A DNA stretch of 41,149 nt from a virus. Within the stretch, counting starts at the first letter, position 1, and every line of letters starts with the position of its first letter. The translations under genes and the position numbers were made by a program. The notes beneath the pieces were generated by a model. It was not told the origin of the DNA. It did not search any database and was given only the letters and a program-made list of their open reading frames with translations. Location of the stretch: IMG/VR virus record IMGVR_UViG_3300022562_000348, positions 1 through 41,149 of that record. One strand, given 5' to 3'. Below, in pieces: positions 851-41,149 of this stretch.

Positions 851-852
851 CT

Positions 853-893
853 AAAAATTTTTTGTTGATTTTTTCAACTAATAGTGTTATAAT
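853..893 (+). promoter_or_regulatory. Sigma70-like promoter with A/T-tract
   Basis: The -35 box TTGATT (865-870) and the -10 box TATAAT (888-893) are separated by 17 nt. AAAAATTTTTT lies directly upstream of the -35 (853-863) and resembles an UP element. The same arrangement occurs at three other promoters (33618-33656, 36592-36631 and 36639-36679). The predicted transcription start (about 900) falls on the ATG at 899, so the message would be leaderless or nearly so. Confidence 0.7.
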
Positions 894-898
894 ACTAT

Positions 899-1264
899 AT
901 GGAAATGAGAAATGGGACAGTAACGTTTCAATACAGTTACATCGCCAGACTTTATGGCAACCCCGCTCCTAACACTATAAGAGTAATACTACGAGGGCTG
1001 GCTTCGGCTCCTCCCGGTTACTCGCAGCTACAAAACGTAGCTGAATTGCTGAACAGTAGAGCTACAAACAGAGAGAAAGCAGAATACTTTGTTTTAGCCT
1101 CAATGCGAAATCCGTTTCATATGAATACGGAGAATGACAGAACTCTTAACCTTTCCGTGGCAAATACCAAGGTTAGTACAGAGAGGATATTAAAAAACAG
1201 ATTGTTGCGATTACAGAGCAACAGAGTATATTTCTATTACGAGGATATATCACATGGCTATTAG
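899..1264 (+). CDS. Hypothetical protein
   Basis: A 121-residue protein I do not recognise. It is basic, lacks a membrane segment or signal peptide, and ends with a stretch rich in Arg, Leu, Tyr and Phe (KNRLLRLQSNRVYFYYED). It lies directly behind a strong sigma70-like promoter and overlaps the ssDNA-binding protein gene by 11 nt, which suggests translational coupling and a role in DNA metabolism. No Shine-Dalgarno sequence precedes the ATG at 899 or the in-frame ATG at 905. Both are within a few bases of the predicted transcription start, so leaderless translation is likely. Which ATG is used is uncertain. Confidence 0.6.
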   Translation: MEMRNGTVTFQYSYIARLYGNPAPNTIRVILRGLASAPPGYSQLQNVAELLNSRATNREKAEYFVLASMRNPFHMNTENDRTLNLSVANTKVSTERILKNRLLRLQSNRVYFYYEDISHGY

Positions 1265-1907: not shown

Positions 1908-1920
1908 TATTGTCACGATA

Positions 1921-1943
1921 AAGGCCACTTCGGTGGCCTTTTT
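1921..1943 (+). terminator. Intrinsic terminator with UUCG tetraloop
   Basis: An 8-bp stem AAGGCCAC / GTGGCCTT (1921-1928 and 1933-1940) closes on the very stable C(UUCG)G tetraloop and runs into a T-tract (1939-1943). It lies between the SSB gene and the SbcD-like gene. The next ATG (1949) starts only 5 nt after the T-tract and has no visible Shine-Dalgarno, so this element probably lets abundant SSB be made while limiting read-through to the nuclease genes. Confidence 0.85.
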
Positions 1944-1948
1944 CATCT

Positions 1949-24900: not shown

Positions 24901-25099
24901 GTCCTTTGCCTCCTCGGCCACCACCACTTCCGCCACCAAAAGTACCCCCGCCGATTTGAGAGTCTAGGCGACTTGACGACAGACGGTTAGATTTTTTGTT
25001 AATCTCCGTCAGTTCTTTGTTTATACCTCTGGCTTGTTTATGTACCTCCGATAGATTTCCCTCGGCTGTAATTTTAAATTTAACGTCATTTGTAGCCAT
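15932..25099 (-). CDS. Tape measure protein, exceptionally long
   Basis: A 3055-residue tape measure protein, which sets tail length and is ejected ahead of DNA. The N-terminus (KFKITAEGNLSEVHKQARGI) is followed by a Gly-rich linker (about 48-75) and long alpha-helical coiled coils rich in Ala, Glu, Lys and Gln. Hydrophobic, potentially membrane-inserting stretches occur near residues 560-625 (LFLIGSTVLMIFG), 1590-1660 (AAFGPWAAFAAALVLAYY) and 2280-2310. A Ser-rich linker is near residue 2390. At about 1.5 angstrom per residue the tail would be roughly 450 nm. Its ATG overlaps the stop of the chaperone GT reading frame (TAATG) with an AAGG ribosome-binding site, the standard G-GT-TMP order. 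Confidence 0.95.
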   Translation of the reverse strand: MATNDVKFKITAEGNLSEVHKQARGINKELTEINKKSNRLSSSRLDSQIGGGTFGGGSGGGRGGKGLGRGTTGTTPNGNTRDFARQAQGLGGLVHLYATFAANIFAVSTAFNALREAMNITNMFKSMNTLTETTGVNIRSLAGDMVKLTDASIALPDAAKFAAMGSAAGLSAMQMKELAVGAKSVSIALGRDINDSMSRLVRGVTKLEPELLDELGIITKATDAYKKYGEEHKVSAANLSSFQKQAAYSAAVLDELRTKWGALADQDISNPFSQLTASLQMAMQDILEFVNVLAGPLAKALADTPGAIITLLGGITAGLFNKAIPIMENFKKKAQQEAALAAEAAVASVTKETKAIEREMARQTAVYEEAAAARKLIIAEQEAAQLAALKLQAEALKELAPGKAPKYVSKILDAKTLGELKDDASLLRTVDGLEKKIKVTNTERLEIAKSMNSILHQEIVVTDQLAAANASMKAIDDKRVAQQERLNLLEKESLNNAYRKLAVTRAEAASTAAKAGEQLARGRLGAGLAGLSESYNAVRAAQSAVGGKTNPLTKGLLNLNAAAANSSKTLYRLAGTMAGGVANGLNAMSAGMVTAKGAATGLATGLTAIMSHPLFLIGSTVLMIFGQDMLRFVGLVSEASKKAEELNESAGKSAKDIAAQSASLENRLAGIEKSTSSEAVRQAARLDAIAKSALAANNRLKEQQDQLAQGIGEIAKQYQISGDTVLVTSKNVYDAAGEFQRAEKAYADAVNKNAASRSAADNLVATVEAQQASLRGFQDLAKVVENESPAAFAKFLSSIEMTKDEFFGMKLSTDKTTSSLAANAQRLSGWSAALADATSRSVEFNATQGKAESISKALTASITRDKQRYADISNSIMKLGEFSGVTKNELVDLVYDMSILGDASAEAANRTGEQQRAYESLSGKTTELRGVLMAMQEAGVGANLGVAEVLAELAKEGGGDIDTIITKLKALSEAMPKFFEKVAPTKGTSPVEKLNKELSGLKEQLDILDKRREAKVSLGISSADELTSRFELLKKISDVEYRKDVQEKDAAAVAKRDMRDLNDLLSYRLGLLEDSNKVRDAQLAIEQRSIGYAKEDLALRSGMGDLAAAEQLKSLERQVKLNDDLRDINDEILRQETILSTLREKGQLTPKAEAEANSTIERLRAQTEEVTKIANLSAKVEDSAERLAKKAAFNNNVFKLTQGIFEQLAADADTTGKTLAVAASEFVASGIEATVYSMAEDLQRASTNLATATTDGDRFAAAVELAAIRGDLLAQNINNARQAFDALREHLVKDSVALRSAEDFGVGMAVAFGDKFDEVFNSHSYVAAAVDAIFDTINTGVDTLIGILRNGKGDIRDIFENMGKVIRDALYEQLAFGLKKAITEAIFGVPKDTNDILREAVENQTTATIDSVIAQREIHEEYKSTTDRLIDALDRNTNKDLMGPPVPSTIESLSDREMTRMVEDQLAAAEGTTTAVDDVREASYSNTKSIITALAKNNSAAKTGIDMVDRGIGMYQQFKNFADIISKGVAFTGEAITYVGELFNNSSMAEYGIGMQYSGGYQGDPSLLMGDVSNSNSGISGGMTLAQAGGAFAGYYLGSKLGKNEYTSTTAGAAGSVAGVGAATLAMGGTSAAAMESMAAFGPWAAFAAALVLAYYDMKDKPRMSFFATHNPDPGVFEDDSFTQSRFGVNMGLNDFRTQKTDGVAINRAVGRTTLGIQDMLISALGINESEYAQINANLRTEKVERNIHDKRDAVVTINDWIKNTTASVIDALASPEVSKVISTRTNEIIGYTSEDYQIGDSSLTGTRHDPIYGQAEGRRSIWGNAIRGVSGEELGPIMEMTDRVVQMFAIWERLPDVREKLGITEEFRQAMFDTVDGNLNFLRDSEFVTTISEQLRRTSEDFITFTENVTEAFQKTTQFAVMLGQETTTAFSTEETRFSLIEAAGGLDAFNEKLQFFADNLIPEAEKLRANYIGTRLQLDQSVPVEALSNALGLTPEVIRSMGSTSDGFYRLIQGLDDTNDSGGSLRAQMLNLGPSFVAAKEASEAFFKQLTGLDANSFSGSLMNAATMDDRSMLQSTGGRQIGQVLVDDIMNGMFDALVAQPIGQMIADNIITPILDSTMGFNNDLADLDFTEVENKINAFTAVMENPQFIEAMSTLAANVNKAGRLMRQAYLQFNKDFTTSVMELLTTTDTDFDMSAVSEGITDIVYSLDTLDPSNIASAMKSYFEDPAAFLEDSGFATFGDYFSDQINQSLMERLVLDPVTNMISEAISSQLTTTLLTGAASAAGGMAAPIAAGGAVAGVSGGTALAQAGSDAVTSFLGQASVDISNWINGIKLVFNDPAFKEFMSVDVPKFVNSATSGLSGFFPSKAKTPVRSSGGSSSSSSGSSSARSSAEDNYAKMLELLSDLRDINQSILEKYDIRSQNVISGAYSDYAGKYQEAADAAAAANPLYLQVTQQRQYYERRIQELQDSIDLQSANRAQNLADARQYGDQGWRYSNDAWYARILSYYQQGLNSFQQQLDMSYAQYGELQDPMQVLAQFNESLERMRVATLQEAKKDLDIRRDQQRGIEETAIVRETVDKTNLAIAEIYRQYGTEINAMLTGGATMTTQWFLDNFQMVESVIANADFTTLTQSQAEALSALADAQYELVDGEKQMFELRLDKTKELEDLWNNLNKGVYSVEEQMGNIYQQLGDGGAYLQGLYKASLDEAKDRLALAQQLGDSNNILSAAEDVQGALETYYSAQVEQMQANLDFALSVTDYLNNLQFSDNSILSKEDQLAAANQQFADYAAILADAGSYTAEEVSTAQDAILGSADTLLQLGREGYASGQGYTDIYNAVTSTLESLGIQGSAIDIQQQIDTARNEILNEQLLELTAIRDVLDAQRAAVGDDLITSAMQLSDSVTTLTDLGFWSSVAESFSSSLSVVVQQAIASGNYAPIEGSYDVGTSYVPKDMIAKIHKGERILTAAENAELMDSLSNPGDSSIVLAAEVRRLREEVSQLRREATDNSRMIAGTVANSSMESTNRIVKSNEDTSERSAQRVEQAGKVNRIV

Positions 25100-30138: not shown

Positions 30139-32040
30139 TTATGCTACCCACTTGAATGTAGCAACACCAGAACCGTTAGCGGTTGTGATTTGCTGGAATG
30201 CCATACGTTGAGAAGCAACTAGCACTCGGCGCTGTTCCTGAACAATGTAGTCAGATTCAACGCGTAGGCCAACTTGTTCACCACGCATGAAGTTAGACTT
30301 GTTAAGACAAATCGCACCGTACTTGGTTGCTGCCTTGGCTTCGAATTCGCCGGAAACAACAACTGGAGTACCTGCAACATAACCGATTTGACCGGTTAGT
30401 AGAGTAGCGCGGTCGCTACCAACTTTGTCAACAGTCTGGAAGGTAGTATCGTCTAGTAGATCGTAATAGATCTCAGTAGATACAACGTAGATCAGATCGG
30501 AAGGATCTAGACCCCAAACACCTAGCTTACGACGAAGTGCGGTTAGAGTAGCTACGGAAGCTGCTGTGGTAACAGAAGCGGTAGTACCAGTAGCATCACC
30601 AATCTTCGCAACACCGTTAAGAGGATCGGAACCAGCACCTTGGCCACGTAGGTGAGCCTGATCGATAGCACGAGCCATACGACGAACCACAGCGTCACGA
30701 ATAATCGGCGCTAGAGCTAGTACGGAGTCTTCATCTTCTTCGTTGGTGATGAATTCCTTGGTTGCTAGCTTGTAGGTTTGTAGTAGGACGTCGTTTAGCT
30801 GGTGAACTTGCGCAGTACCTGAAGAAGCGGTAGTACCGTAATCAGTTGCTGCAACCCAGTTTGCCACGCCTGCTTCAGGGTTGATTGGGAAACGCATGGT
30901 AGGAGTAGGCATTGTAATGGTCTTGAATAGCGGCGCTACTACTAGACGACGACGAATGTCTGCCTGCATGTTGTTGGAAACGGTGTGTTCCCACTCGCCA
31001 GCACCTGCACCACCATAGTGAGGACCAGCTTTTTCGATAAGAGACTTACCATACTTGGTGTCTTCTACTCGACGGCTAAGTGTCTTAGCAAGGATAATCG
31101 CGGATTCCTTTTCCTGAATGGAAATAGGGTCCTGATTACCATTATTGCGATCGCCAAAGCCAGCCTTAGATTTTAGAAGAGCTTCGATCTCTGCACGCTG
31201 TTCAGCGATCTGCTCTGCAAGGCCTTCGGTTAGTCCTTTGACTTGTGCGTCAAGACCATCCTTCATTGCCTTCTCAAGACGGGCTTCAACTTCGCCCACT
31301 AGCTTCTCAGCGCTAGATTGAAGTACTTGAATATCTGCTGCCTTGCGAGTTTCAGCTTCCTTAGCTGCTTTCTCGGCTTGCAGACGTTCTTCTTCTTTTT
31401 GATCTAGAGCGCTCTTAACCAGTGCGGCTAGTTCTTCTTTAGTCATATTAAATTCATCCTGGGCATTACCATTTGCTCCGTCATCCTTTTTAGTTGAGTC
31501 GTCAGATGGTAAAAATTGTTTCTTAAAGGCTTGGAACTCTTCAGTCGTTCCAAAGCACTTGGAAACACTGAATAGAGATTCTTGGTTAGCCGGAACCGAG
31601 ACCACAGAAATCTCGTGTAGTTCGATATCTTTTACAACGAAGACGTCAGCGTCTTTGTCGTAGGACATGTCTTTGATTCGTCCTCCAATAGAGAAAGCGC
31701 GTAGCACTCCTGCTTTAACGAACTCATATACGTCTGTAGCAGACTTCATGATTTGGGCTTTTACTTTTAGGCCCTTTTCGTCAACAGCAAGCTCGGTTAC
31801 TCTCCCTACTGGGCGAGAGTGATCGTGGAAAGCCAGAACGATAGGATTCTTCTGATAGTTATTCAGACCCCCGTTCTTAGTCCAGGCCTCAACCTGAATC
31901 ACGTCTCCATGACGATCCTCGTCCTTAGTGTTCGCGTAACCTTCGATGGTGATATAATCTTCACCATCTTCTGCTTTAGTGGCTTTTTCTACTGTGAATA
32001 ACGAATCGATTCGAAAGTCTTTTAGACCCTCAATTTTCAT
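30139..32040 (-). CDS. Prohead protease-scaffold-major capsid fusion
   Basis: A 633-residue polyprotein. Residues 1-160 form an S78 (HK97 prohead) protease with FHDHSRPVG (H72 or H74), FSIGG (S117) and LHEISVVSVPAN (E143), matching the expected His, Ser and Glu. Residues 165-290 are a charged coiled coil, like the scaffolding delta domain. Residues 291-633 form an HK97-fold major capsid protein (TPTMRFPINPEAGVANWV and DPLNGVAKIG). An internal ATG at 31446 (M199), with AGGA upstream, could give a protease-free scaffold-capsid product of 435 residues. The fusion places one protease on each capsid subunit unless the internal start is used. A GC-rich hairpin follows. Confidence 0.9.
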   Translation of the reverse strand: MKIEGLKDFRIDSLFTVEKATKAEDGEDYITIEGYANTKDEDRHGDVIQVEAWTKNGGLNNYQKNPIVLAFHDHSRPVGRVTELAVDEKGLKVKAQIMKSATDVYEFVKAGVLRAFSIGGRIKDMSYDKDADVFVVKDIELHEISVVSVPANQESLFSVSKCFGTTEEFQAFKKQFLPSDDSTKKDDGANGNAQDEFNMTKEELAALVKSALDQKEEERLQAEKAAKEAETRKAADIQVLQSSAEKLVGEVEARLEKAMKDGLDAQVKGLTEGLAEQIAEQRAEIEALLKSKAGFGDRNNGNQDPISIQEKESAIILAKTLSRRVEDTKYGKSLIEKAGPHYGGAGAGEWEHTVSNNMQADIRRRLVVAPLFKTITMPTPTMRFPINPEAGVANWVAATDYGTTASSGTAQVHQLNDVLLQTYKLATKEFITNEEDEDSVLALAPIIRDAVVRRMARAIDQAHLRGQGAGSDPLNGVAKIGDATGTTASVTTAASVATLTALRRKLGVWGLDPSDLIYVVSTEIYYDLLDDTTFQTVDKVGSDRATLLTGQIGYVAGTPVVVSGEFEAKAATKYGAICLNKSNFMRGEQVGLRVESDYIVQEQRRVLVASQRMAFQQITTANGSGVATFKWVA

Positions 32041-33235
32041 CAGTTACTCCAATTGTTTTCGTAGGAGGCTTACCTCCAGAAGATGGATCAGCTGCGCTAC
32101 CAGCAATGTTAGCTGGGATTCGAAGGTCATCATGACCCGCCTTAGGCTCAAGGCGCATAGCGCTACGAGCTTCGTTCGGTGCCATAACTCCGCCGTTAAC
32201 CAGAGTAGTAAAGTAAGCGGAAGCTTCCTTCATTTCCGGTTGTAGTGCAGATACATTAGGTACTACAGGTTCAATGTCAAACCCAAAGAAACCTTCAACT
32301 GCTGACGCCACCATGGTTACCACTGGGTAGATAGTTTCAAGGTAGAATAGTCTTAAGTTAGGACTAATGTTTGCGTTGTTGCCACCCCTAAGCAGAATGT
32401 AGGGAACACCTAGAGCTAGCAGTATCGCTTCTTCTTTCTTGTTGATAGAGTTTTCAAAGTCCAATTCAGAGAAACTCTTATCGATTAAATTCTGTACTTC
32501 AAGTCCACCATCTAGAATAAGAGGACGTCGACCACCCGCGGTAGGGCTGTATCGTTGCGTCCATGAAGCTAGTAGGCGTTCTTTTGTCTTCTCACCAAGA
32601 GGGTTCTTAGATGTGATAACTAGTCCAGGAATAGTTCCATGCTGGAAGAATTTGTTCTGGAAGTCCTGCATCTTCTTAAGAGTATCGATGCTCTGCAGAG
32701 CAGCGCTTAGGCGGCTCTGGCCACGATAAATGCTCTCTGCAGAGTTATCAGATATGTGGATAATTTCCTCCGGCAAGAACTTAGTTCTACCAGCATACAT
32801 GTAGTGATCGACAAAGGTCTTCTCATCTGTCATGATCTGCACTGACTGGGCTGGTAGCTGATATAGGTACACCCCGTCATAGTAGATAAAGATATTACCG
32901 TCTAGGAAGAAATCCACAAAACAGTTTCGCCAAAATTTATTGACGCTCTGGTAAGGATTTGGTCTAACGTTAAGAAGCTCTAGCAGCTTCTTTTGTTTCA
33001 TTTTTGTAGTACCTACGATGATTCTATCTTTCACATCGTAAGTAAAGGAGGCACATCCGTTGACGCACCTATCGACACCATTTCGCACTGCTTCCAGTTT
33101 CTTGTAAGCGTCGGTGTAGTATGCTACATGTTCGGTAGTGCCAATATCGTGACCTTGTTCGTCACGAATAATCACCTGTGCGGGGTTGTCCTTATTAGTC
33201 AGAGCTCCCCACAGGCGGCTCATATATCCTGCCAT
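32030..33235 (-). CDS. Portal protein
   Basis: An HK97-family portal protein that forms the dodecameric DNA gate at one capsid vertex. Family features are an early PNPYQSVNKFWRNCFVDFFL helix, GNIFIYYDGVYLYQLPAQSV, HISDNSAESIYRGQSRLSAA and ILLALGVPYILLRGGNNANIS in the stem region. I prefer the ATG at 33235 (MAGYMSRLW), which leaves 401 residues. The longer frame to 33304 adds 23 basic residues with no ribosome-binding site and lies within the HNH gene. The gene still overlaps the HNH gene by about 41 nt and the capsid fusion gene by 11 nt. The true start is uncertain. Confidence 0.9.
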   Translation of the reverse strand: MAGYMSRLWGALTNKDNPAQVIIRDEQGHDIGTTEHVAYYTDAYKKLEAVRNGVDRCVNGCASFTYDVKDRIIVGTTKMKQKKLLELLNVRPNPYQSVNKFWRNCFVDFFLDGNIFIYYDGVYLYQLPAQSVQIMTDEKTFVDHYMYAGRTKFLPEEIIHISDNSAESIYRGQSRLSAALQSIDTLKKMQDFQNKFFQHGTIPGLVITSKNPLGEKTKERLLASWTQRYSPTAGGRRPLILDGGLEVQNLIDKSFSELDFENSINKKEEAILLALGVPYILLRGGNNANISPNLRLFYLETIYPVVTMVASAVEGFFGFDIEPVVPNVSALQPEMKEASAYFTTLVNGGVMAPNEARSAMRLEPKAGHDDLRIPANIAGSAADPSSGGKPPTKTIGVTDEN

Positions 33236-33608
33236 ATTTATCTGCCTGCTTCGCAATCCATCGTGCCTGTTTCGCGGCAGTAGTTGGAGCGGGTTTCGGG
33301 CCATACACGCTATGTAGTTTTACATGATGCTGATTGCACAAGGTGACAACCATGTCATATAACTCCACTTTGTGAGCGTCTATAAACTCGTCCCTTACTG
33401 CAAGCACATCCTCGTCAGTTTCTAACGGATAGCCTTTAGATTTTGCCCACTTTTCAAATAGTATAGTGAGCGAATGGAAGTGGTGCAGTTCTAAATCTTC
33501 TCCAGCACCACATACAACGCATTCATCAGCCTTTTCGTAGGCTTTCTTTGCACGGTCACGAACCCATTTCACTGGGTCTCGCTTCCTAGCTCCTGTGTTT
33601 TTTGCCAT
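33195..33608 (-). CDS. HNH endonuclease
   Basis: A 137-residue HNH nuclease with a zinc-binding pair (C30 and C33, in ECVVCG), the LELHHFH core (H42, H43) and LCNQHHVKLHS (C91, H94, H95, H99). HNH proteins next to the large terminase are known to work with it when concatemers are cut during packaging, as HK97 gp74 does. Here it lies between large terminase and portal, behind its own promoter. The ATG has no Shine-Dalgarno and starts only a few bases after the predicted transcription start, so translation is probably leaderless. Confidence 0.88.
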   Translation of the reverse strand: MAKNTGARKRDPVKWVRDRAKKAYEKADECVVCGAGEDLELHHFHSLTILFEKWAKSKGYPLETDEDVLAVRDEFIDAHKVELYDMVVTLCNQHHVKLHSVYGPKPAPTTAAKQARWIAKQADKYGRIYEPPVGSSD

Positions 33609-33617
33609 ATTTTAAGT

Positions 33618-33656
33618 ATTATAACGCAAATGAAAAATAATTTCAACAAAATTTTT
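33618..33656 (-). promoter_or_regulatory. Sigma70-like promoter for HNH-portal-capsid operon
   Basis: Read on the minus strand, AAAAATTTT (33656-33648) precedes TTGAAA (33646-33641), a 17-nt spacer and TATAAT (33623-33618). The ATG of the HNH gene is 9 nt beyond the -10 box. The composition matches the promoters at 853-893 and in the 36592-36679 divergent region. Confidence 0.72.
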
Positions 33657-33675
33657 CAGACCGAAAATACGACCA

Positions 33676-33695
33676 GAGACGCGATTAAACGTCTC
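33676..33695 (-). terminator. Weak inverted repeat at end of large terminase gene
   Basis: GAGACG (33676-33681) and CGTCTC (33690-33695) form a 6-bp stem around the terminase stop codon. There is no clear T-tract, so this is at most a weak terminator or processing site before the promoter at 33618-33656. Confidence 0.3.
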
Positions 33696-35007
33696 CAGTT
33701 CCCTTAGTCCACGTATACATGGAGTACCGCATAGCATCGGCCATGTGGCTATAGATATCGTGCTTAGGCTTTTCCTTAACAGCATTACCGATAGTTTCCG
33801 CCCACGAATACTGATCTAGCATCGCAAGTGTATTTCCACACTTACTAGCGACAAACAACTTGCCTTGCTCCACAATTGACTGGCAGAATGAAATTCCGTC
33901 CAGTATGGATTTGTTAGCAGGTGTACAGGTTAGGTCGTGTTCATATGCTAAGTCGTACTGAGTCTGAGCAGCCGCGGAGTCGATGTAGATCATCTCAACA
34001 TCATATCCACAGTCAGCTAAGTACGAGTTTAGTTCTTTGATTCGTTCTGCGTGTCGAGCGGTGTTGGCTTCCGCTTGCTGGTACTCGTCGAGGATATAAT
34101 AGCACTCAGTACTAGGGGAGAAACCAATAACGATGTAAGCTGTAGGGTCCCTAAAGCCAGGGTCCAGCCCAGCAAATACCTCCAAGTCGTTAGGCAGTTC
34201 ATAGTCATCGTCGAAGACGTTGACGTCCGCGTCAAAGTGGTAGATCTGGCCTTGGAAGGATACGAATGAAGCTTCATACTCTTGCTTGAATTCCGCGTTG
34301 GACATTGAGCGACGAGCTTCCATAACGTCCGCCTCACCCATCCTATTGTTCTCACGATAGTCAGAGTGAACAGAACACCATTCAGGAAAGTCTTCGCCGA
34401 ATCCCCGGTTGTAATAGTGGGAGAACCAGTTGTTTCGACCACGAGGGGTTGAAATAAACACGGCTTTCGAACCAGGACGATCTAGTGTAGGACGCAGCGC
34501 AACCTGGAAAGCTAGGTCGCCTTCAGGGTGTAGCGCAGCCTCATCGAATAAGATCATGTTATAGGAGCGTCCAACGCAAGCATCTACTTGGTTGACAGAA
34601 CCCATACGAATAGTTGATCCATTAATAAGTTCAATAACTCGATCTTTAGCGTTATCTTTACGCACCTCTACATCGTATTTGCGAAGTAGGTCTCGTTGCT
34701 GTTTGAACGAGATTTCAGATAGGTTATAGTTAGGAGACATAATCAGTACGTTATGGTCAGGTATAAGTGACATAAGGTGAGCGATTACGTTCGCTATATA
34801 GGTTTTTCCGGTACGTCGTGATAACGCACCAACTACGAATCGATACTTAGGATTATTAAGGGCGTTGATTACAGCTATCTGAGGCCGTAACGGCTCAACT
34901 TCCTCCATTGCTAAGTACTTTTCGACAGGTAGCTTAATAAATCGTTCGTCGATGTCCCTCTGCTCTATAAACTCAGAAGGAACATCGCTGCGACTGATAG
35001 TAAGCAT
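33685..35007 (-). CDS. terL: Terminase large subunit
   Basis: A 440-residue packaging motor protein. The ATPase domain has Walker A SRRTGKTY (63-70), Walker B MILFDEAA (151-158) and coupling motif FISTPRG (184-190). The RNase H-like nuclease domain starts at FAGLDPGFRDP (D282), with IYIDSAA (D343) and DAMRYSMY near the C-terminus supplying further metal ligands. It pumps DNA into the prohead and cuts concatemers. It is separated from the small terminase by one unusual gene (35039-36070). The family is secure; the packaging mode (cos or headful) cannot be told here. Confidence 0.95.
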   Translation of the reverse strand: MLTISRSDVPSEFIEQRDIDERFIKLPVEKYLAMEEVEPLRPQIAVINALNNPKYRFVVGALSRRTGKTYIANVIAHLMSLIPDHNVLIMSPNYNLSEISFKQQRDLLRKYDVEVRKDNAKDRVIELINGSTIRMGSVNQVDACVGRSYNMILFDEAALHPEGDLAFQVALRPTLDRPGSKAVFISTPRGRNNWFSHYYNRGFGEDFPEWCSVHSDYRENNRMGEADVMEARRSMSNAEFKQEYEASFVSFQGQIYHFDADVNVFDDDYELPNDLEVFAGLDPGFRDPTAYIVIGFSPSTECYYILDEYQQAEANTARHAERIKELNSYLADCGYDVEMIYIDSAAAQTQYDLAYEHDLTCTPANKSILDGISFCQSIVEQGKLFVASKCGNTLAMLDQYSWAETIGNAVKEKPKHDIYSHMADAMRYSMYTWTKGTGDV

Positions 35008-35038
35008 ATACTAATACCCCACATAGTCAAATTAATGA

Positions 35039-36070
35039 CTAAATATTTAAACATAGCTCTTTCCACGAACCATACTGTTCGAGGTTATGACCATACCACA
35101 CAGTCTCTCCAGCAATGCCCCAACGCCAATCCCAGTCGTACGTAGGTTGTAGCAACATCACGCGACGGCCGCGAAGCAGGGCAATATGCACTATAGAAGT
35201 GTCAACAGAGATAACAGTGTGGCATTTGTCGATCAAGTCGATAGTATCCTGCCAAGATTTGATCGCAGGGTTATCGCCGAACTGTAGGCTCAAACTACCC
35301 ATCTCCAACATAGCACGGCGCAGTGATGGGTATGAGCGGTTAATATCGTTCTGATGCTTTGGGTTACCTTTCCAGCACACGCCTATTTCATCCCCGAGAG
35401 GAATATCTTGCACAGGGCAAGGACGAGGACCAAAAAGCATAGGTAAAGACCCCATTGGTATATAGTACTCGGCATCAGAATCAGTGGAAGCAGTAATAGT
35501 GTTAGGAAATAGTCCATGCAGTTCAGCAGGCACTAAGTAGTCATACGAAGGTATACACTCTAAGTAACGAGAGAACATAAAGTCGTCACCAACCCCCTGT
35601 TCAGCTATAACCATTACTTTGCCAGTGCCTTCCCAACGTTTACGTCCACCGAGGTTTGGGAGCGCGACAGGTTTGTTCTTAGTGAAGCGAGTCTCGTACT
35701 GAGAAAAGGCAAACTCCCATCCAGCACCATCAGCAGAAGCAATCTTCATGTATTGCAAAGCACGGTTGAACTTAGCCTCAGAATAGCCAAGATCTACAGC
35801 GCGATTATACCATTCAATCGCTTCATCGGGGCGTCCGATTAGTTGCTTATACAAACCTATGTTGCTATGAGCCATGTCGAACGTAGGATCTGCTCTCACG
35901 CTTCGCATAGTATAGTCATAAGCCAGCTCAGGACGCCCCAATGCAATGCATGCAGCACCTGCGTCTAGTAGAGCATACTTGTCATCCGGAAAACGGGCAA
36001 GATGCTTGTCAAACTCGCGCAGGGCGTGGTGGTATTTACCTTCTCTAAAGTACTTTTGTGCTCGATTCAT
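35039..36070 (-). CDS. TPR protein with glycosyltransferase-like domain
   Basis: A 343-residue protein. Residues 1-110 hold about three tetratricopeptide repeats (KYFREGKYHHALREFDKHLA, then PELAYDYTMRSVRADPTF and PDEAIEWYNRAVDLGYSEAK). Residues 130-343 resemble the GT-B glycosyltransferase region of bacterial TPR proteins related to the GT41 (OGT/SPINDLY) or GT9 families: VCWKGNPKHQND-NRS, LIDKCHTVISVDTSIVHIAL and YDWDWRWG, which mark the nucleotide-sugar side. It lies between the small and large terminase genes and overlaps the former by 4 nt (ATGA). A glycosylation role for phage or host proteins is possible but unproven. The domain reading is fairly confident; acceptor and sugar are unknown. 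Confidence 0.7.
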   Translation of the reverse strand: MNRAQKYFREGKYHHALREFDKHLARFPDDKYALLDAGAACIALGRPELAYDYTMRSVRADPTFDMAHSNIGLYKQLIGRPDEAIEWYNRAVDLGYSEAKFNRALQYMKIASADGAGWEFAFSQYETRFTKNKPVALPNLGGRKRWEGTGKVMVIAEQGVGDDFMFSRYLECIPSYDYLVPAELHGLFPNTITASTDSDAEYYIPMGSLPMLFGPRPCPVQDIPLGDEIGVCWKGNPKHQNDINRSYPSLRRAMLEMGSLSLQFGDNPAIKSWQDTIDLIDKCHTVISVDTSIVHIALLRGRRVMLLQPTYDWDWRWGIAGETVWYGHNLEQYGSWKELCLNI

Positions 36071-36543
36071 TTTGTCGCTAAGATTTTGCGTACAAGGTCG
36101 CCGTAGTTACCTTGTGGTCCCTCATTAATTTGAATATTGGTCTGAGTCTTAATGTTATCAGACTTAGCCCGTGCCTCTTCTAGTTTCGCCATCGCAGCAA
36201 GCTCATCCATACGCATCTTATGAGCCATTTGTAGTAGGTCAGCAATGTCTTTACCAGATCCAAGTTCCGCTTCGTCCAACTCTGCTAACTTAGAGGCGAT
36301 AATAGTGTCCATTGCCGCTGCGATGTTATTTCTGTTTCTATAGCCTGTATCTAGGTACACCGTATCTATATACCGCTTCACCTCGGCCTGACTTAGCACA
36401 CGAGCGACTACGTCGCGAGCAATGCCAGTGGCCTGAATTACAGCGTCAATATTGCCGCACTTCAAATAGGAATTAGCGATAAGAAGATTCTCCGGTGCGA
36501 TTTCAACTACCTCAGCGGGAGAGGCACGAACAACGCTATTCAT
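36067..36543 (-). CDS. terS: Terminase small subunit
   Basis: A 158-residue protein with an N-terminal helix-turn-helix-like region (AVIQATGIARDVVARVLSQ), a helical middle and a C-terminal part (NIQINEGPQGNYGDLVRKIL) common in small terminases. It recognises viral DNA and regulates the large subunit. I chose the ATG at 36543 because AAGGAG lies 7 nt upstream. An in-frame ATG at 36585, 14 codons further, lies exactly at the predicted transcription start of the promoter at 36592-36631, so a longer leaderless form (172 residues) may also exist. An ATG at 36603 lies upstream of the predicted start and is unlikely. Confidence 0.78.
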   Translation of the reverse strand: MNSVVRASPAEVVEIAPENLLIANSYLKCGNIDAVIQATGIARDVVARVLSQAEVKRYIDTVYLDTGYRNRNNIAAAMDTIIASKLAELDEAELGSGKDIADLLQMAHKMRMDELAAMAKLEEARAKSDNIKTQTNIQINEGPQGNYGDLVRKILATK

Positions 36544-36591
36544 AGAATACTCCTTTTGCAGCACCAAATAATTTTGGTACGTCATAGTCGA

Positions 36592-36631
36592 AGTATAACA
36601 CATTCACTACCCAAAATCAATAAAATTTTTT
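36592..36631 (-). promoter_or_regulatory. Leftward late-operon promoter
   Basis: On the minus strand AAAAAATTTT (36631-36622) is followed by TTGATT (36620-36615), a 17-nt spacer and TATACT (36597-36592). It drives the small terminase operon. Six nt after the -10 box an ATG (36585) occurs. It is divergent from the promoter at 36639-36679, with the two A/T-tracts almost touching. Confidence 0.75.
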
Positions 36632-36638
36632 CGACCCC

Positions 36639-36679
36639 AAAAATTCTCACTTGATTCTTCTAGTCTGTTTTGCTATAAT
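36639..36679 (+). promoter_or_regulatory. Rightward promoter for KOW-repeat genes
   Basis: AAAAATT (36639-36645), TTGATT (36651-36656), a 17-nt spacer and TATAAT (36674-36679). An ATG at 36686 lies 6 nt after the -10 box and opens an 8-codon frame (MFNGGAIK) that ends at the start codon of the next gene. Confidence 0.78.
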
Positions 36680-36685
36680 ATTTAT

Positions 36686-36712
36686 ATGTTCAATGGAGGA
36701 GCAATCAAATGA
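36686..36712 (+). CDS. Possible leaderless leader peptide
   Basis: A putative 8-codon frame, MFNGGAIK followed by TGA. Its ATG lies exactly at the predicted transcription start, its body contains the GGAGG ribosome-binding site of the next gene, and its stop overlaps that gene's start (ATGA). It could couple leaderless initiation to re-initiation at 36709. It is very short and may be chance. Confidence 0.3.
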   Translation: MFNGGAIK

Positions 36713-36972
36713 AACTTAAAGTTGGTGATAAAGTTGTAACGCACAGCGGACGCAAGGGCGTCGTTGTTGAGGAAAATAAGGGCGAGATCGTATATCGGTT
36801 CATTGTGGAGCTGGAAGCCGTACGTCTTGTAAATGGAAAGAAGAAAATTATCCCGAATGAGAAGGTAAAAGAGTCATTTACCGAGGATGGTAGGTACATG
36901 GCTAGCGGTCCTAGCATGGCCGACATTGCAAGAATTATTGAAGACGAAGTGGAAACGCAGGAGCCGTTCTAA
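36709..36972 (+). CDS. KOW/SH3-like single-repeat protein
   Basis: An 87-residue protein whose first 80 residues form one copy of the repeat found four times in the next gene: LKVGDKVVTHSGRKGVVVEE, a beta-rich middle, then TEDGRYM...DIARII. The opening KVGDxVxxxxGxxGxV is typical of KOW/SH3-like beta barrels that bind nucleic acids or proteins. GGAGG 9 nt upstream of the ATG fits. It overlaps the next gene by one base (TAATG). The function is unknown; similar small barrels are common in phage early or accessory regions. Confidence 0.7.
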   Translation: MKLKVGDKVVTHSGRKGVVVEENKGEIVYRFIVELEAVRLVNGKKKIIPNEKVKESFTEDGRYMASGPSMADIARIIEDEVETQEPF

Positions 36973-37949
36973 TGGATATGCTTAAGTATAAAGCAGGCGA
37001 TCAAGTTGTGCTGCGCAACGGAGTAGTTGCAACTCTTACAAGTGTGTCCCCGGGAGCCGGCCTATACCCGGTCCGAGCTTCTCTGCCGAAGAAGGCTGCC
37101 GATTCCGAAGGAGTGCACACCATTCTCCTAACAAAGGAGGGTAAGTACTGGCATGATGATCTTACTCCCAACAAGTACGATGTTGTTGGGGAAGCACCAC
37201 AGGTACCTGTCTACGAAATCGGAGATGAGGTGCAGTGCATCAACAATGAAATTGGTGTAGTAGATCGTTTTCGTGAGGCCGAAGACTATCCTATGATGGT
37301 AAAGTTCAAGGATGTCAATGGCCAGTACACTGAACGCTCCTATACACGTACTGGGAGGTATATCAACGATAAAGAGGAAAGTCCTCGAGACATTGTTGGT
37401 AAGGCAATTAAGCCCTCTTCACCATCGGTACCATACAAAGTGGGGGATCGAGTACGTCTTCGCAACGGTGACGAAGGGACTGTTGTAACAATCCGCAACG
37501 GGGACAACTATGCCTTCCCGGTGGTTGTGAACAGTGGCGATGACCAGTACTCCTACACGGTAGATGGCTTCTATTTTAGCAGTGGTACGTCTGCGCTAGA
37601 CATTATCAGTGTAATCGACGATCCTAAGTCGCTGACTGCGAAGATCGGAGACCTGGTTATCCTTCGCAATGGACGCCGGGGTCGCGTTACTCGGATGCGC
37701 AATGATGCCATGTACCCATTTCTGGTGAAGTTTCTGGACGATGAGTCCATCGAAACATACACAGGACGTCTGAAATACATGTCAGATGGGGAAACTCACC
37801 ACATGGACATCATTGCGGTCGAGCCTCTTGTGGAAGATCAGGAAGATGACTTCGATGCGGATGATTGGTTCGAAGTTGAGGATGAAACGACCCCAGAAAT
37901 CGACAATATGCCTGATTATGAAGAAAATGCAGTAATTGACCCATTTTAA
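36972..37949 (+). CDS. Tandem four-repeat KOW/SH3-like protein
   Basis: A 325-residue protein with four tandem copies of one domain of about 60-68 residues (about 6-73, 81-143, 155-214 and 224-283). Each begins K/EIGDxVxLRNGxxGxV, continues YPFxVxF and ends YTxxGxYxxD...DII. A strongly acidic tail (286-325, EDQEDDFDADDWFEVEDE) follows. Together with the preceding gene, five copies lie in a row, so the array probably grew by duplication. The acidic tail hints at DNA mimicry or protein binding. No catalytic residues are seen and no known function is assigned. Confidence 0.72.
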   Translation: MDMLKYKAGDQVVLRNGVVATLTSVSPGAGLYPVRASLPKKAADSEGVHTILLTKEGKYWHDDLTPNKYDVVGEAPQVPVYEIGDEVQCINNEIGVVDRFREAEDYPMMVKFKDVNGQYTERSYTRTGRYINDKEESPRDIVGKAIKPSSPSVPYKVGDRVRLRNGDEGTVVTIRNGDNYAFPVVVNSGDDQYSYTVDGFYFSSGTSALDIISVIDDPKSLTAKIGDLVILRNGRRGRVTRMRNDAMYPFLVKFLDDESIETYTGRLKYMSDGETHHMDIIAVEPLVEDQEDDFDADDWFEVEDETTPEIDNMPDYEENAVIDPF

Positions 37950-37990
37950 TGGGTTTTAGCCCCTTTTTCGAGAGAAATTGGGGCTTTTTT
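37939..37990 (+). terminator. Tandem intrinsic terminators
   Basis: The first hairpin ACCCATT / AATGGGT (37939-37954) overlaps the stop codon and is followed by T's. The second, AGCCCC / GGGGCT (37958-37963 and 37980-37985), extends inwards by further pairs (TTTC / GAAA) and runs into six T's. This ends the KOW-repeat operon and marks the border to a compositionally different region. Confidence 0.85.
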
Positions 37991-38044
37991 GTTGGTTTTT
38001 GCACTTTTTCTACCACAGCATTTGTGCCTATTATTCAGCCTCCG

Positions 38045-38092
38045 CTACCTTGGCACCGTGTAGGTTTTGGTTGTTTTTACCAAAGTTTTACG
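38045..38092 (+). repeat. 48-bp direct repeat, copy 1
   Basis: It begins CTACCTTGGCACCGT, then AGGTTTT, and ends ACCAAAGTTTTACG. It is 63 bp from copy 2, with 38 of 48 positions identical. The first 24 and last 14 positions are conserved while the central 10 differ, which suggests two protein-binding blocks. Confidence 0.75.
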
Positions 38093-38107
38093 TTATATCA
38101 ATCTCTA

Positions 38108-38155
38108 CTACCTCGGCACCGTAAAGGTTTTCATGAAATTAACCAAAGTTTTACG
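38108..38155 (+). repeat. 48-bp direct repeat, copy 2
   Basis: It begins CTACCTCGGCACCGT, then AAAGGTTTT, and ends ACCAAAGTTTTACG (14 of 14 identical to copy 1). It has the same length and spacing between its two conserved blocks as copy 1. It lies upstream of the palindrome at 38206-38225. Confidence 0.75.
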
Positions 38156-38182
38156 CGAAGGTGGGCACAGAGAGCCTGGCGT

Positions 38183-38225
38183 TTGTCAAGGTCTGATAAC
38201 CGCCCTATGTGATTTAAATCACATA
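38183..38225 (+). promoter_or_regulatory. Candidate promoter overlapped by a CRP-like palindrome
   Basis: TTGTCA (38183-38188) and TATGTG (38206-38211) are 17 nt apart. The -10 is the left end of a perfect 20-bp palindrome (TATGTGATTTAAATCACATA, 38206-38225) whose core fits the CRP half-sites TGTGA-N6-TCACA exactly. A regulator bound there would block the promoter, or might act on the promoter at 38281-38309. Confidence 0.5.
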
Positions 38226-38280
38226 TCCAGTCTTTTTGTGCAACTGGGGACGGGCGGTCCGATTTTTCCGACGAACGGTC

Positions 38281-38309
38281 TTGCATCTGGAGGCAGGCGA
38301 GCGTATTAT
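38281..38309 (+). promoter_or_regulatory. Sigma70-like promoter, leaderless type
   Basis: TTGCAT (38281-38286), 17 nt and TATTAT (38304-38309). The ATG of the next gene (38316) lies 6 nt beyond, at the predicted +1. It closely resembles the promoter at 39895-39922. Confidence 0.65.
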
Positions 38310-38315
38310 AAACAC

Positions 38316-38570
38316 ATGGACAACGCACTACGGATGACTGAGATGACCAACTATCACGAACTGCTGATGCAAGCGATTTATACTACTTGCCTGGACATGC
38401 ACGTGACTGCTGGTGCTAGCATGCGAAACGACTATGCGCGTCGCATGCAACCGGAATTCGCTAATGACGTTTCGTTTGACTACGCGCTGGAGCGCACGCA
38501 TGTTGGGCACGCTGGCGGCATGAAAAAAGGCCCGACGTTCCCGAAAATTCCGGTTGCGCTCTGCTACTGA
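38316..38570 (+). CDS. Small hypothetical protein, first of the right module
   Basis: An 84-residue protein beginning MDNALRMTEMTNYHELL and ending PKIPVALCY. It has a probable helical N-terminal half and a basic middle (MRNDYARRM), with no membrane segment. No Shine-Dalgarno is present and the ATG sits at the predicted transcription start, so translation is likely leaderless. The in-frame frame upstream (from 38067) reads through repeats and is not credible. The codon use (CTG, GCG) differs from the left part of the window. The function is unknown. Confidence 0.6.
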   Translation: MDNALRMTEMTNYHELLMQAIYTTCLDMHVTAGASMRNDYARRMQPEFANDVSFDYALERTHVGHAGGMKKGPTFPKIPVALCY

Positions 38571-38582
38571 TTACTGTATTAT
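38554..38582 (+). promoter_or_regulatory. Sigma70-like promoter
   Basis: TTGCGC (38554-38559), 17 nt and TATTAT (38577-38582). It lies at the 3' end of the preceding gene and drives the gene at 38609, which, unlike the leaderless genes, has AAAGGAG upstream. Confidence 0.6.
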
Positions 38583-38608
38583 CTAACTTCGTTCAAAGGA
38601 GAAACACC

Positions 38609-38962
38609 ATGACTGCCAAGGCTACCAACTACACTGCCGAGCAAACCACCGCGATGGTTGCTGCTTACTCTGCTGCTGAAACTGAAGCGGATCGCGCTGC
38701 TGTCGTGGCTGCACAGGCCAAACTGCTGGGCAAATCTGAAGCGTCGATCCGCGCCAAGCTGTCGCGGGAGGGCGTGTATATCAAGAAGGAGGCGAAGCGG
38801 AAGGATGGCACGCCTGTCCAGAAGAAAGACGAGTTTGCCACTGCCATCGGCAAGATCCTTCGCCTGTCGGAAGGCGATACCGATTCGCTGGCGAAAGCCA
38901 ATCGCAAGGCGCTGGAAAGCATCTTCGATGCACTGGCGAACAGCAAGCCGATCAGCGAATAA
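38609..38962 (+). CDS. Probable small DNA-binding protein
   Basis: A 117-residue protein, Ala-, Lys- and Glu-rich, beginning TAKATNYTAEQTTAMVAAY. The segment about 35-60 (AKLLGKSEASIRAKLSREGVYIK) has the look of a helix-turn-helix and matches a type of small phage protein I associate with DNA or RNA binding. The C-terminus is helical (SLAKANRKALESIFDALANS). AAAGGAG at 38595-38601 fits the ATG. It is followed by a promoter with a large inverted repeat. A regulatory role is plausible but unproven. Confidence 0.6.
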   Translation: MTAKATNYTAEQTTAMVAAYSAAETEADRAAVVAAQAKLLGKSEASIRAKLSREGVYIKKEAKRKDGTPVQKKDEFATAIGKILRLSEGDTDSLAKANRKALESIFDALANSKPISE

Positions 38963-38966
38963 AGGC

Positions 38967-39008
38967 TTGACTTCTGGTACGCTTCCGCTACAATAGAAGC
39001 GTACCAGA
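38967..39008 (+). promoter_or_regulatory. Promoter nested in a 13-bp inverted repeat
   Basis: TTGACT (38967-38972), 16 nt and TACAAT (38989-38994). The -10 box lies in the 10-nt loop of a perfect inverted repeat, TCTGGTACGCTTC (38973-38985) and GAAGCGTACCAGA (38996-39008). It could be a dimeric operator that represses the promoter, or a hairpin acting as an upstream terminator. The gene at 39031 follows. Confidence 0.6.
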
Positions 39009-39030
39009 TAACTTTTCTTCGGAGCCGATC

Positions 39031-39330
39031 ATGAGCCAGACCATCGCCCAACGTAAAACCCTTCGCCGCTACGCCTCGCACAATGGCACGAAAATCGTGA
39101 CCGAATATGCGAGCGGCAAGAAAGACGTGCAACGCGCTACGCTGGCGCAGCGTATCGGCTACCTTATCGGGAGGATCTTTCGCAATGCTGAACATGCAAA
39201 CATGGGTTCTGTTGCTACTTCTCACGACGCTTGGAATAAGCGTTGCGGAATGGCTGACGATTCGCTCCGCGCAGATTGCAGCGGAATCACGGTTGAATTC
39301 CTCGACTGCGAACACATTGAACTGAACTGA
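39031..39330 (+). CDS. Small hypothetical protein
   Basis: A 99-residue protein, basic at its N-terminus (QRKTLRRYASHNGTKI), with a hydrophobic short segment (RIGYLIGRIF). The second half (HANMGSVATSHDAWNKRCGM ... EFLDCEHIELN) is read in a frame that overlaps another possible gene (39185-39325). CGGAG (39020-39024) lies upstream of the ATG. The promoter with an inverted repeat at 38967-39008 drives it. No recognised family. Confidence 0.5.
   Translation: MSQTIAQRKTLRRYASHNGTKIVTEYASGKKDVQRATLAQRIGYLIGRIFRNAEHANMGSVATSHDAWNKRCGMADDSLRADCSGITVEFLDCEHIELN
39185..39325 (+). CDS. Possible embedded small membrane protein
   Basis: A 46-residue frame within the preceding gene in another frame. It begins MLNMQTWVLLLLLTTLGISV, has one clear membrane segment and ends NSSTANTLN. 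GGGAGG (39169-39174) lies 10 nt before the ATG, a better site than that of the host gene. Both frames stop within 5 nt. It may be a real overlapping gene, for example a membrane peptide, or a chance frame. Confidence 0.45.
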   Translation: MLNMQTWVLLLLLTTLGISVAEWLTIRSAQIAAESRLNSSTANTLN

Positions 39331-39344
39331 GGAGGCGCCGCACC

Positions 39345-39701
39345 ATGTCGCACATTGTTATGGATGCAGAAGACGTGAGGCGGCGCGCTCGCGCTGCTAT
39401 CGAATTCATTGAACTGGCCCAACTGCAACACTTCGCCAACCTACTGCGCGAGGTAGCAGCGGAGCGCGTTGGCTGGCCTTGGGCACGGCGTGCGCGTGGC
39501 TACGATGAAGCATTCAGGCTTTGCACGGTTGATGGCAACATGGAATACACCATGCGCGCTATTGTGCGGGAAGGGCTTTGGCGTAAGGATCTTATCCGGG
39601 CAGAAAGGTTGCTTATGCTTGGGGAATATGGCGATCCGGTCACTGTCTCGGCCGAAGACATTTACATTCTGGATGATGAATTTATTGAACTAGATCAATG
39701 A
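39345..39701 (+). CDS. Hypothetical protein
   Basis: A 118-residue protein with a basic, helical N-terminal half (DAEDVRRRARAAIEFIELAQ, then REVAAERVGWPWARRARGYD) and an acidic C-terminus (VSAEDIYILDDEFIELDQ). GGAGG (39331-39335) 9 nt upstream of the ATG supports the start. It lies directly behind the overlapping pair. No known motif and no membrane segment. It is followed by a hairpin-rich non-coding stretch. Confidence 0.55.
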   Translation: MSHIVMDAEDVRRRARAAIEFIELAQLQHFANLLREVAAERVGWPWARRARGYDEAFRLCTVDGNMEYTMRAIVREGLWRKDLIRAERLLMLGEYGDPVTVSAEDIYILDDEFIELDQ

Positions 39702-39702
39702 C

Positions 39703-39801
39703 TTAGCCTGGCCCAAACCCCTGTATAATCAAGGACTTACAGGGGTCCGGGCGGGGTGCACCATTTTGGTGCACCCGCGCCGCGCGGGCACGCTCTCCCA
39801 C
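39703..39801 (-). ncRNA. Candidate small leftward RNA or tiny ORF
   Basis: A transcript from the minus-strand promoter at 39808-39835 would start near 39801 and could fold into GGGTGCACC and CCCCTGTA...TACAGGGG hairpins; the latter is followed by GTTTGG, a poor terminator. A GTG at 39801 lies exactly at the predicted start and opens a 32-codon frame ending at 39703. Which, if either, is real cannot be decided from sequence alone. Confidence 0.3.
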
Positions 39802-39818
39802 AATTACATTATACAGGG
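39718..39818. repeat. Hairpin-dense region with inverted TATAAT repeats
   Basis: CCCCTGTA (39718-39725) pairs with TACAGGGG (39738-39745). GGGTGCACC (39754-39762) pairs with GGTGCACCC (39768-39776) around a 5-nt loop; GGTGCACC, itself a palindrome, thus occurs twice. CCCTGTATAAT (39719-39729) recurs inverted as ATTATACAGGG (39808-39818), so two -10-like boxes face each other. It may be an sRNA gene, a repressor site cluster or an origin-like element. Confidence 0.6.
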
Positions 39819-39835
39819 CTGGGCGCAAATTGCAA
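39808..39835 (-). promoter_or_regulatory. Leftward promoter in hairpin region
   Basis: On the minus strand, TTGCAA (39835-39830), 16 nt and TATAAT (39813-39808). Its transcript would converge with any from the TATAAT at 39724-39729 on the plus strand, which has only a poor -35 (TTAGCC). Confidence 0.5.
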
Positions 39836-39894
39836 CTACCGTTCGTCGGAAGCAGGTCTGTTACAATTTCTTACATTTCCTGGCGCAAAAAGGC

Positions 39895-39922
39895 TTGCAT
39901 TCGGCTGTGAAACGCCTATAAT
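39895..39922 (+). promoter_or_regulatory. Sigma70-like promoter, leaderless type
   Basis: TTGCAT (39895-39900), 16 nt and TATAAT (39917-39922), then AAGCAC and ATG at 39929. It corresponds closely to the promoter at 38281-38309, which is followed by AAACAC and ATG. Confidence 0.72.
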
Positions 39923-39928
39923 AAGCAC

Positions 39929-40144
39929 ATGGACACGAACAAAGCACTCTCTTGGATCTCGGCGGCAGGCGGCATGCTTGGCGCGGCGCTATGCTCTAGC
40001 GGGCATATGGCAATCGGATACCCGTTTTTCTTTGTGGGTTCTGTTGCTGGCGTCGTAGCACTGCGGCATAATATGCCAATGCTTCTGCAATTTCTGTTTT
40101 TTACTGCATGCAATGCCTACGGCATTCTGAATTTTACGCTCTGA
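39929..40144 (+). CDS. Small membrane protein
   Basis: A 71-residue, mostly hydrophobic protein with two or three membrane segments (about 8-25, AAGGMLGAALCSSG; about 30-45, YPFFFVGSVAGVVAL; about 50-68, MLLQFLFFTACNAYGI). It lacks a signal peptide or lipobox. No ribosome-binding site precedes the ATG, which lies at the predicted transcription start. A role in the host membrane early in infection (superinfection exclusion or transport) is possible, without specific evidence. The stop codon overlaps the next gene's ribosome-binding site. Confidence 0.65.
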   Translation: MDTNKALSWISAAGGMLGAALCSSGHMAIGYPFFFVGSVAGVVALRHNMPMLLQFLFFTACNAYGILNFTL

Positions 40145-40154
40145 GGGTATTACA

Positions 40155-40628
40155 ATGGCAATCAAGCGCGTTTCTATTTTCGACATGGATGGAACTATCG
40201 TGGATAGTTCCCACCGCTATCGCACTGTCATGACTCCCGAAGGAGAGCGTATTGATTTGGGATACTGGCGTGCAAATGAGCATAAAGCAATGGACGATGG
40301 TTTGCTTCCGCTTGCAGAGCAATACCGCAAGGATCTTAATGATCCAGAATGTTACGTTGTCATCGCAACGGCACGCGAAATGCATGATGCGGATTGGCGC
40401 TTTGTTCGCGAAATTTTGGGCGAGCCTGACTATCTGATCTCGCGTCCGCACGGTTCCGCGATTAGCGGCAAGGCTTTGAAAATCGGTGGCCTCGCAAAAT
40501 TCGCTAACTTGCTGAACTTCAAAAATGCCGAATGGGTTTTTTACGAAGATAACGTAGAATACTTGAAAGCGGTGTGCGATCGTTTTAATATCCGCGGCGT
40601 ATATATTCCGTCGGTCCAAGGTCACTAA
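40155..40628 (+). CDS. HAD-superfamily phosphatase
   Basis: A 157-residue HAD phosphatase. Motif I is FDMDGTIVD (the first D is the nucleophile), motif II is in VVIATAREM (T), the motif III lysine is probably in GKALKIGGLAKF, and motif IV is YEDNVEYL. The size fits a minimal HAD with a very small cap, such as the T4 PseT 3'-phosphatase domain or a deoxynucleotidase. GAGGG (40143-40147) fits the ATG. It is followed, about 15 nt on, by an exonuclease gene, so the two may act on nucleotides or damaged RNA/DNA ends. The substrate is uncertain. Confidence 0.8.
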   Translation: MAIKRVSIFDMDGTIVDSSHRYRTVMTPEGERIDLGYWRANEHKAMDDGLLPLAEQYRKDLNDPECYVVIATAREMHDADWRFVREILGEPDYLISRPHGSAISGKALKIGGLAKFANLLNFKNAEWVFYEDNVEYLKAVCDRFNIRGVYIPSVQGH

Positions 40629-40643
40629 TAGGGGATTATGAAA

Positions 40644-41149
40644 ATGGCTCAAAAACAATTCTTTCTGATTATCGACACTGAAACGACCATTAAAGATACG
40701 GTCGCGGATTTTGGCGCGATTGTTGTGGATCGCAAAGGCGTTATTCACAAAGAATGCAGCGTTATGGTCGCGGGTCATTTTGGTACGTTTGACCTGTTCT
40801 ATGACAACAGCAACGATTCTCTGTGGGGCCGTCGTGGTCTGGAGATGCGCACGGCAAACTATATGCGCATGCTGGAAGAGGGCACGCGACAAATGGCAAG
40901 CGTTGCCGCCATCAATCGCTGGCTTGAAAAGGTCGCCGCGCTGTATCCGGGAATTGAATTGACCGCTTATAATCTGGCATTCGATGCGGGTAAAATGGCG
41001 AATACCGGAATTGACGTTAGCATGTTCCCGAAGCGGTTTTGCTTGTGGCACAAAGCATTTGCCATGTTCGCGCACACCAAAAAATATCGCGAATTCATTC
41101 TGGCGAATCACTTGTTTAATCCGCCGACCGAAAAAGGCAATATGTCTTT
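40644..41149 (+). CDS. DEDD 3'-5' exonuclease, cut by window end
   Basis: The frame is open to the window's end, so the gene is incomplete (about 168 codons seen). Motif I is FLIIDTETT near residue 11, motif II is TAYNLAFDAGKM near residue 117, where D122 is expected to bind metal; motif III lies beyond the window. It belongs to the DnaQ-like DEDD family, which degrades or proofreads DNA or RNA from the 3' end. I chose the ATG at 40644 (MAQKQFF), 9 nt after GGGG (40631-40634); the ATG at 40638 is too close to it. It follows the HAD phosphatase closely. Family likely; role unknown. Confidence 0.82.
   Translation, partial: MAQKQFFLIIDTETTIKDTVADFGAIVVDRKGVIHKECSVMVAGHFGTFDLFYDNSNDSLWGRRGLEMRTANYMRMLEEGTRQMASVAAINRWLEKVAALYPGIELTAYNLAFDAGKMANTGIDVSMFPKRFCLWHKAFAMFAHTKKYREFILANHLFNPPTEKGNMS

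Follow-up and report, generated by a model that had tools for sequence, protein, structure and literature searches.

The question raised by this locus is whether the ATG codons that lie where transcription should begin, a few nucleotides past several promoters, belong to genes expressed without the usual ribosome-binding leader. The window, that is, the whole stretch of 41149 bases that was analysed, represents part of the genome of an uncultured T5-like phage: genes 47-5143 keep the T5 order D10, 125, D11, D12, D13, D14, and the window shows the T5-type order of terminase and replication genes by which Demerecviridae are recognised. Its terL shares 46% identity with the terL of Pectobacterium phage My1 and resembles those of many Vibrio T5-like phages too; L002, an overlapping contig, carries a terL identical to it, and a search of positions 14000-36600 against cultured phages found no closely related DNA. 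The structural-gene region contains an ORF of 3055 aa (15932-25099). Nine terL relatives occur in genome assemblies (seven gammaproteobacterial MAGs, six of them Gammaproteobacteria, Porticoccaceae or Halieaceae bins by title, with some bins counted twice; one assembly labelled Bacteroidetes; one labelled Parcubacteria). These matches fit Gram-negative, gammaproteobacterial hosts, a hint only, since the evidence is from binning and phage contigs are binned unreliably.

The earlier note had placed an ATG 5 or 6 nt after the -10 box of a sigma70-type promoter at five positions, and the measured spacings agree: 5 nt at 899, and 6 nt at 36585 (minus strand), 36686, 38316 and 39929. The promoters are TTGATT-17-TATAAT with an extended -10 (865..893, +; scan score 14.0), preceding a T5.125-like gene (899..1264, +; phrog_4258, function unassigned); TTGATT-17-TATACT with an extended -10 (36592..36620, -; 12.9), preceding terS (36067..36585, -); TTGATT-17-TATAAT, again with an extended -10 (36651..36679, +; 14.0); TTGCAT-17-TATTAT (38281..38309, +; 10.0), preceding an 84-aa gene (38316..38570, +) for which no relatives were found among the relative loci compared; and TTGCAT-16-TATAAT (39895..39922, +; 11.3), preceding a 71-aa gene (39929..40144, +). 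The coordinates and 9-nt spacing given for the ATG of an HNH endonuclease-like gene (33195..33608, -) were reproduced as well, its promoter being TTGAAA-17-TATAAT (33618..33646, -; scan score 15.1, also recovered by the consensus scan). The Shine-Dalgarno (SD) sequence is absent, as had been claimed, at 899, 33608 and 39929, where the anti-SD duplex energy is close to zero or above it (+0.7, +1.2 and -0.3, compared with -3 to -12 at most other gene starts of the window); further near-zero values belong to two doubtful calls (27360 and 33304) and to 36070, a gene overlapping the terS stop. An SD is likewise absent at 38316, where a weak apparent pairing (-3.5) sits inside the -10 region, upstream of +1. 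Judged by the predicted +1, the starts at 899, 38316 and 39929 have no leader able to carry an SD and are leaderless candidates; at 33608 the start codon lies a few nucleotides past the predicted +1, and the expected leader of about 2-3 nt contains no SD.

Since these genes begin where their mRNA should begin, several genes of this phage and of many uncultured relatives probably lack a ribosome-binding leader. Sigma70-type RNA polymerase would initiate on the A of the AUG at 899, 38316 and 39929, and 2-3 nt ahead of the AUG at 33608, and the ribosome would initiate on the 5'-terminal AUG without an SD. We put the probability that the sites are genuine leaderless or near-leaderless transcription units at roughly three in four, and infer the RNA 5' ends, the translation and any advantage from promoters, spacing, conservation and AUG preference, all read from the sequence.

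The recurrent leaderless design proposed earlier stands, both in the window and as a class in uncultured relatives, with the exception of three positions. At 36585 the 5'-terminal ATG of terS shares its reading frame with a second, SD-led ATG at 36543 (AAAGGAG, anti-SD -8.2). The +1 ATG at 36686 opens an 8-codon ORF (MFNGGAIK, 36686..36712, +) whose TGA overlaps the SD-led ATG 36709 (anti-SD -9.3) of a small gene (36709..36972, +) showing a weak YajC-like match below the cut-off, and no relatives among the relative loci compared. By predicted +1, 36585/36543 and 36686/36709 are pairs of a 5'-upstream AUG (5'-uAUG) and an SD-led start on one mRNA: the same promoter geometry would give terS two in-frame starts, and the short upstream ORF ending on ATG 36709 could couple translation. 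In E. coli, 5'-uAUGs on SD-led mRNAs bind 70S ribosomes and affect some downstream genes (PMC4965119), behaviour that fits both pairs. The third position is the GTG at 39801, which does lie 6 nt past the -10 of TTGCAA-16-TATAAT (39808..39835, -; scan score 12.4); as a gene start it was excluded, because a strongly folded RNA begins there (39703..39801, -; dG -58.9 kcal/mol, z -5.3). No known RNA family was found in the window.

The relatives are the real test, and the set comprised 79 terL relatives besides L002 (54-57% identical) and 59 D11 loci, all on uncultured contigs. Among 175 strong promoters of the terL set, an ATG with a long ORF was found at offsets 5, 6 and 7 from the -10 in 4, 11 and 27 cases, and at 8-12 in one, a peak made up mostly of terS and the HNH gene. 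Twelve longer records gave 23 starts at offsets 5-7, from several gene families, against 2 at 0-4 and 5 at 8-16, and the called genes of ten records (20 at offsets 5-7) gave a two-humped histogram, with few starts at 8-16 and then the SD-led leaders. The preference is for AUG: offsets 5-7 across 248 promoters held ATG 64 times, GTG twice and TTG six times, with no peak for GTG or TTG. Pattern searches returned 34 matches vs 3 with a reversed-pattern control and, in a second search, 55 vs 10. Cases in which the ATG overlaps the -10 (TATAATG, a peak at offset -2) were rejected as leaderless, being at least partly in-frame extensions of a start 9 nt on, and were left out of these counts. In codons 2-6 the leaderless ORFs contain 53% A, compared with 39% in SD-led genes, a richness that plausibly keeps the 5' end open; CA-rich starts were dropped as a feature, C showing no enrichment and the bias being toward A. 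The pattern in the relatives is far beyond chance; what had been noted is real, wider than first claimed, and would represent a leaderless minority start class, beside ordinary SD-led genes, in a large uncultured T5-like lineage. In T5 itself no gene-length ORF starting at offset 5-7 was found, and a lower threshold in T5-like isolates gave ten ATGs at these offsets, eight opening ORFs of <30 aa and two opening putative ORFs of 47-48 aa.

Comparison of the spacing among relatives, the check proposed in the earlier note, supported conservation for terS (6-7 nt) and showed drift for the 899 and HNH genes. In marine terS the ATG lies 6-7 nt past the -10 in 23/23 distinct contexts, with varying letters between the two, and 22 of the 23 have no other Met before the conserved terS domain. 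SD-led terS was found in all seven cultured phages compared (T5, Ceto, My1, pVp-1, Slocum, JSF10 and PR1). A wider search yielded 31 records leaderless by rule, 12 SD-led and 8 unassigned, counts that are not independent because many of the records are near relatives. The states on the terS tree can be explained by three changes, such as one gain plus two losses; the window is basal within the leaderless clade, its exact place being unsure because of long branches. Two contigs inside this clade (L056, L066) have an SD-bearing terS, and these are likely reversals.

The start at 899 is less sure, given the further in-frame ATG at 905 and an unconserved N-terminus. In relatives, T5.125-like genes also begin close to a strong -10 (offsets -2 to +11), and the gene has an SD in T5 and in Vibrio phage D254. 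The HNH start at 33608 is supported by conservation of its first residues in Ceto and T5. In relatives the HNH gene is leaderless, has a short leader without an SD, or is SD-led; in G022 its offset is 9, as in the window. Eight HNH genes (L022, L036, L048, L058, L063, L064, L076, L195), with the ATG 13-15 nt past the -10, a leader of ~6-9 nt and no SD, form an in-between class. Two further observations concern the T5.125 frame. In L004 (35058; T5 75658) and L143 (5646) it aligns from an SD-preceded ATT, 66 nt before the annotated start, which may be an AUU start codon; and in L092, L099, L101 and L110 the 125-like ATG upstream of D11 shares bases with a consensus -10 (TATAATG) or adjoins it, which rules out that promoter as the source of the start codon.

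The composition of the window shifts from ~38 kb, and position 40155 has a relative of T5-like deoxynucleoside monophosphatase (dmp-like HAD) genes; the right end past ~38 kb is therefore probably the terminal-repeat, pre-early region, although a long terminal repeat itself was not seen in this fragment. Near the composition step lie two 58-nt direct repeats, 76% alike (38035-38155). Gene 38609 has relatives in many uncultured phages, with the terL family of the window in 14/14 of the long records tested. At the 39929 locus the promoter and the ATGGACAC start recur in relatives ahead of other genes: L279 and L280 start as TACTAT-TAGCAC-ATGGACAC, L282 as TATAAT-TCTCTAC-ATGGACAC, and the HAD gene of L219, L232 and L252 shares its reading frame with the +1 ATG. 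As the same start stands before different genes, it looks portable between them.

Other elements of the pre-early region were also observed. Strong antisense promoters (TTGACA-TATAAT or TAAAAT) occur on the minus strand of L201, L203, L207, L213, L220, L248, L250, L263 and L273; the antisense pre-early promoters of relatives, and 39703-39835 of the window, have long near-perfect hairpins within ~5 nt downstream, several per locus, possibly an array of hairpin small RNAs. The 14-mer TTCCGACGAACGGT immediately precedes the -35 at 38266-38279 (+) and 39838-39851 (-), and the two promoters that it flanks, at 38281 and 39835, face each other; it could be a regulator site.

The alternative that survives best, unlikely in our view, is that an ATG at +1 is a by-product of transcription, arisen by drift from a preference for A at +1 and T at +2, the starts downstream being those translated. 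Of the 48 annotated T5 promoters, 29 have AT at +1/+2, as ATA or ATT, and ATA and ATC are likewise common at offset 6 in the relatives; SD-led starts follow 36585 and 36686, and short ORFs opened by +1 ATGs occur in pre-early loci. This T5-family preference inflates the occurrence of ATG at +1: five of the eight intergenic promoter candidates in the window have an ATG at offset 5-6 vs ~0.3 expected, with p ~2e-6 at a naive base rate and ~1.5e-3 allowing for the T5 AT bias, both values post hoc. However, none of the 48 annotated T5 promoters has ATG at +1, gene-length ORFs in relatives begin at +1 ATGs much more often than at neighbouring offsets, and an SD-led alternative before the conserved domain is absent in terS and other genes. 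It is quite improbable that transcripts start farther upstream and that the genes are translated from within a leader independently of an SD, as internal cistrons or by 70S scanning: gene 47-850 does end 49 nt before 899, and at the equivalent place in T5 there are two long-leadered promoters, but the repeated occurrence of a precise 5-7 nt spacing among relatives would be left unexplained, and a terminator-like hairpin (37953-37985) separates 38316 from upstream genes. That the sites were picked by eye among many promoter-like matches is hardly credible, for although the list was made post hoc and the consensus scan of 32000-41149 found 14 sites vs 13.1 expected from shuffles, no excess, so that single promoter calls are weak, the intergenic proportion given above argues against chance, the design is repeated in relatives at terS and at the 39929 locus, and the 33608 offset recurs in G022.

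If the sites are leaderless or nearly so, AUG would occupy the +1 site at which T5 promoters have AUA or AUU, which means that a T5-type promoter could acquire the design by a single base change. A tentative extension, which we consider doubtful as yet, is that the uncultured lineage keeps a second start class in genes of packaging, nuclease and pre-early function, with gain and loss occurring separately in each gene, and that expression of these genes departs from that of SD-led genes when infection alters ribosomes or initiation factors; the earlier suggestion that the design permits translation under such changes is speculative. A phage-encoded initiator tRNA as a general helper was dropped, since there are no tRNA genes in the window or G007 and no CAT-anticodon tRNA in G021, fragments that could hide some. 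Leaderless genes in phages are usually regarded as single oddities. If a lineage-wide class is conserved, gene callers may mis-set starts in T5-like phages, the +1 geometry would be under selection, and AUA to AUG would be a simple route between SD-led and leaderless expression at T5-type promoters. No published account of leaderless genes in Demerecviridae or T5-type phages was found in the open literature, most subscription papers being outside it.

In temperate phages, leaderless mRNAs of the lambda cI type arise from individual repressor-type genes. The present candidates resemble lambda cI and further leaderless phage transcripts in the 5'-end AUG, the absence of an SD, the sigma70 promoter and the Gram-negative phage (PMC3160421, PMC9031893); in contrast, several unrelated genes (packaging, nuclease, pre-early) across a T5-like lineage are concerned here. 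Leaderless genes are rare in enterobacteria, and 70S ribosomes bind a 5'-terminal AUG (reviewed in PMC9031893). In the E. coli 5'-uAUG mRNAs a 5'-terminal AUG precedes an SD-led start, the arrangement predicted at 36585 and 36686, but those mRNAs come from host genes (PMC4965119), and the two terS starts are in frame. Host-wide leaderless expression systems likewise have the -10 motif only a few bases ahead of the start, whereas here the predicted leaderless genes are a minority class with full -35/-10 promoters among genes that are mostly SD-led. The T5 early promoters share the strong sigma70 signals and the AT at +1/+2; they differ in that AUA or AUU stands at +1 and an SD leader usually follows, where the window and its relatives have AUG.
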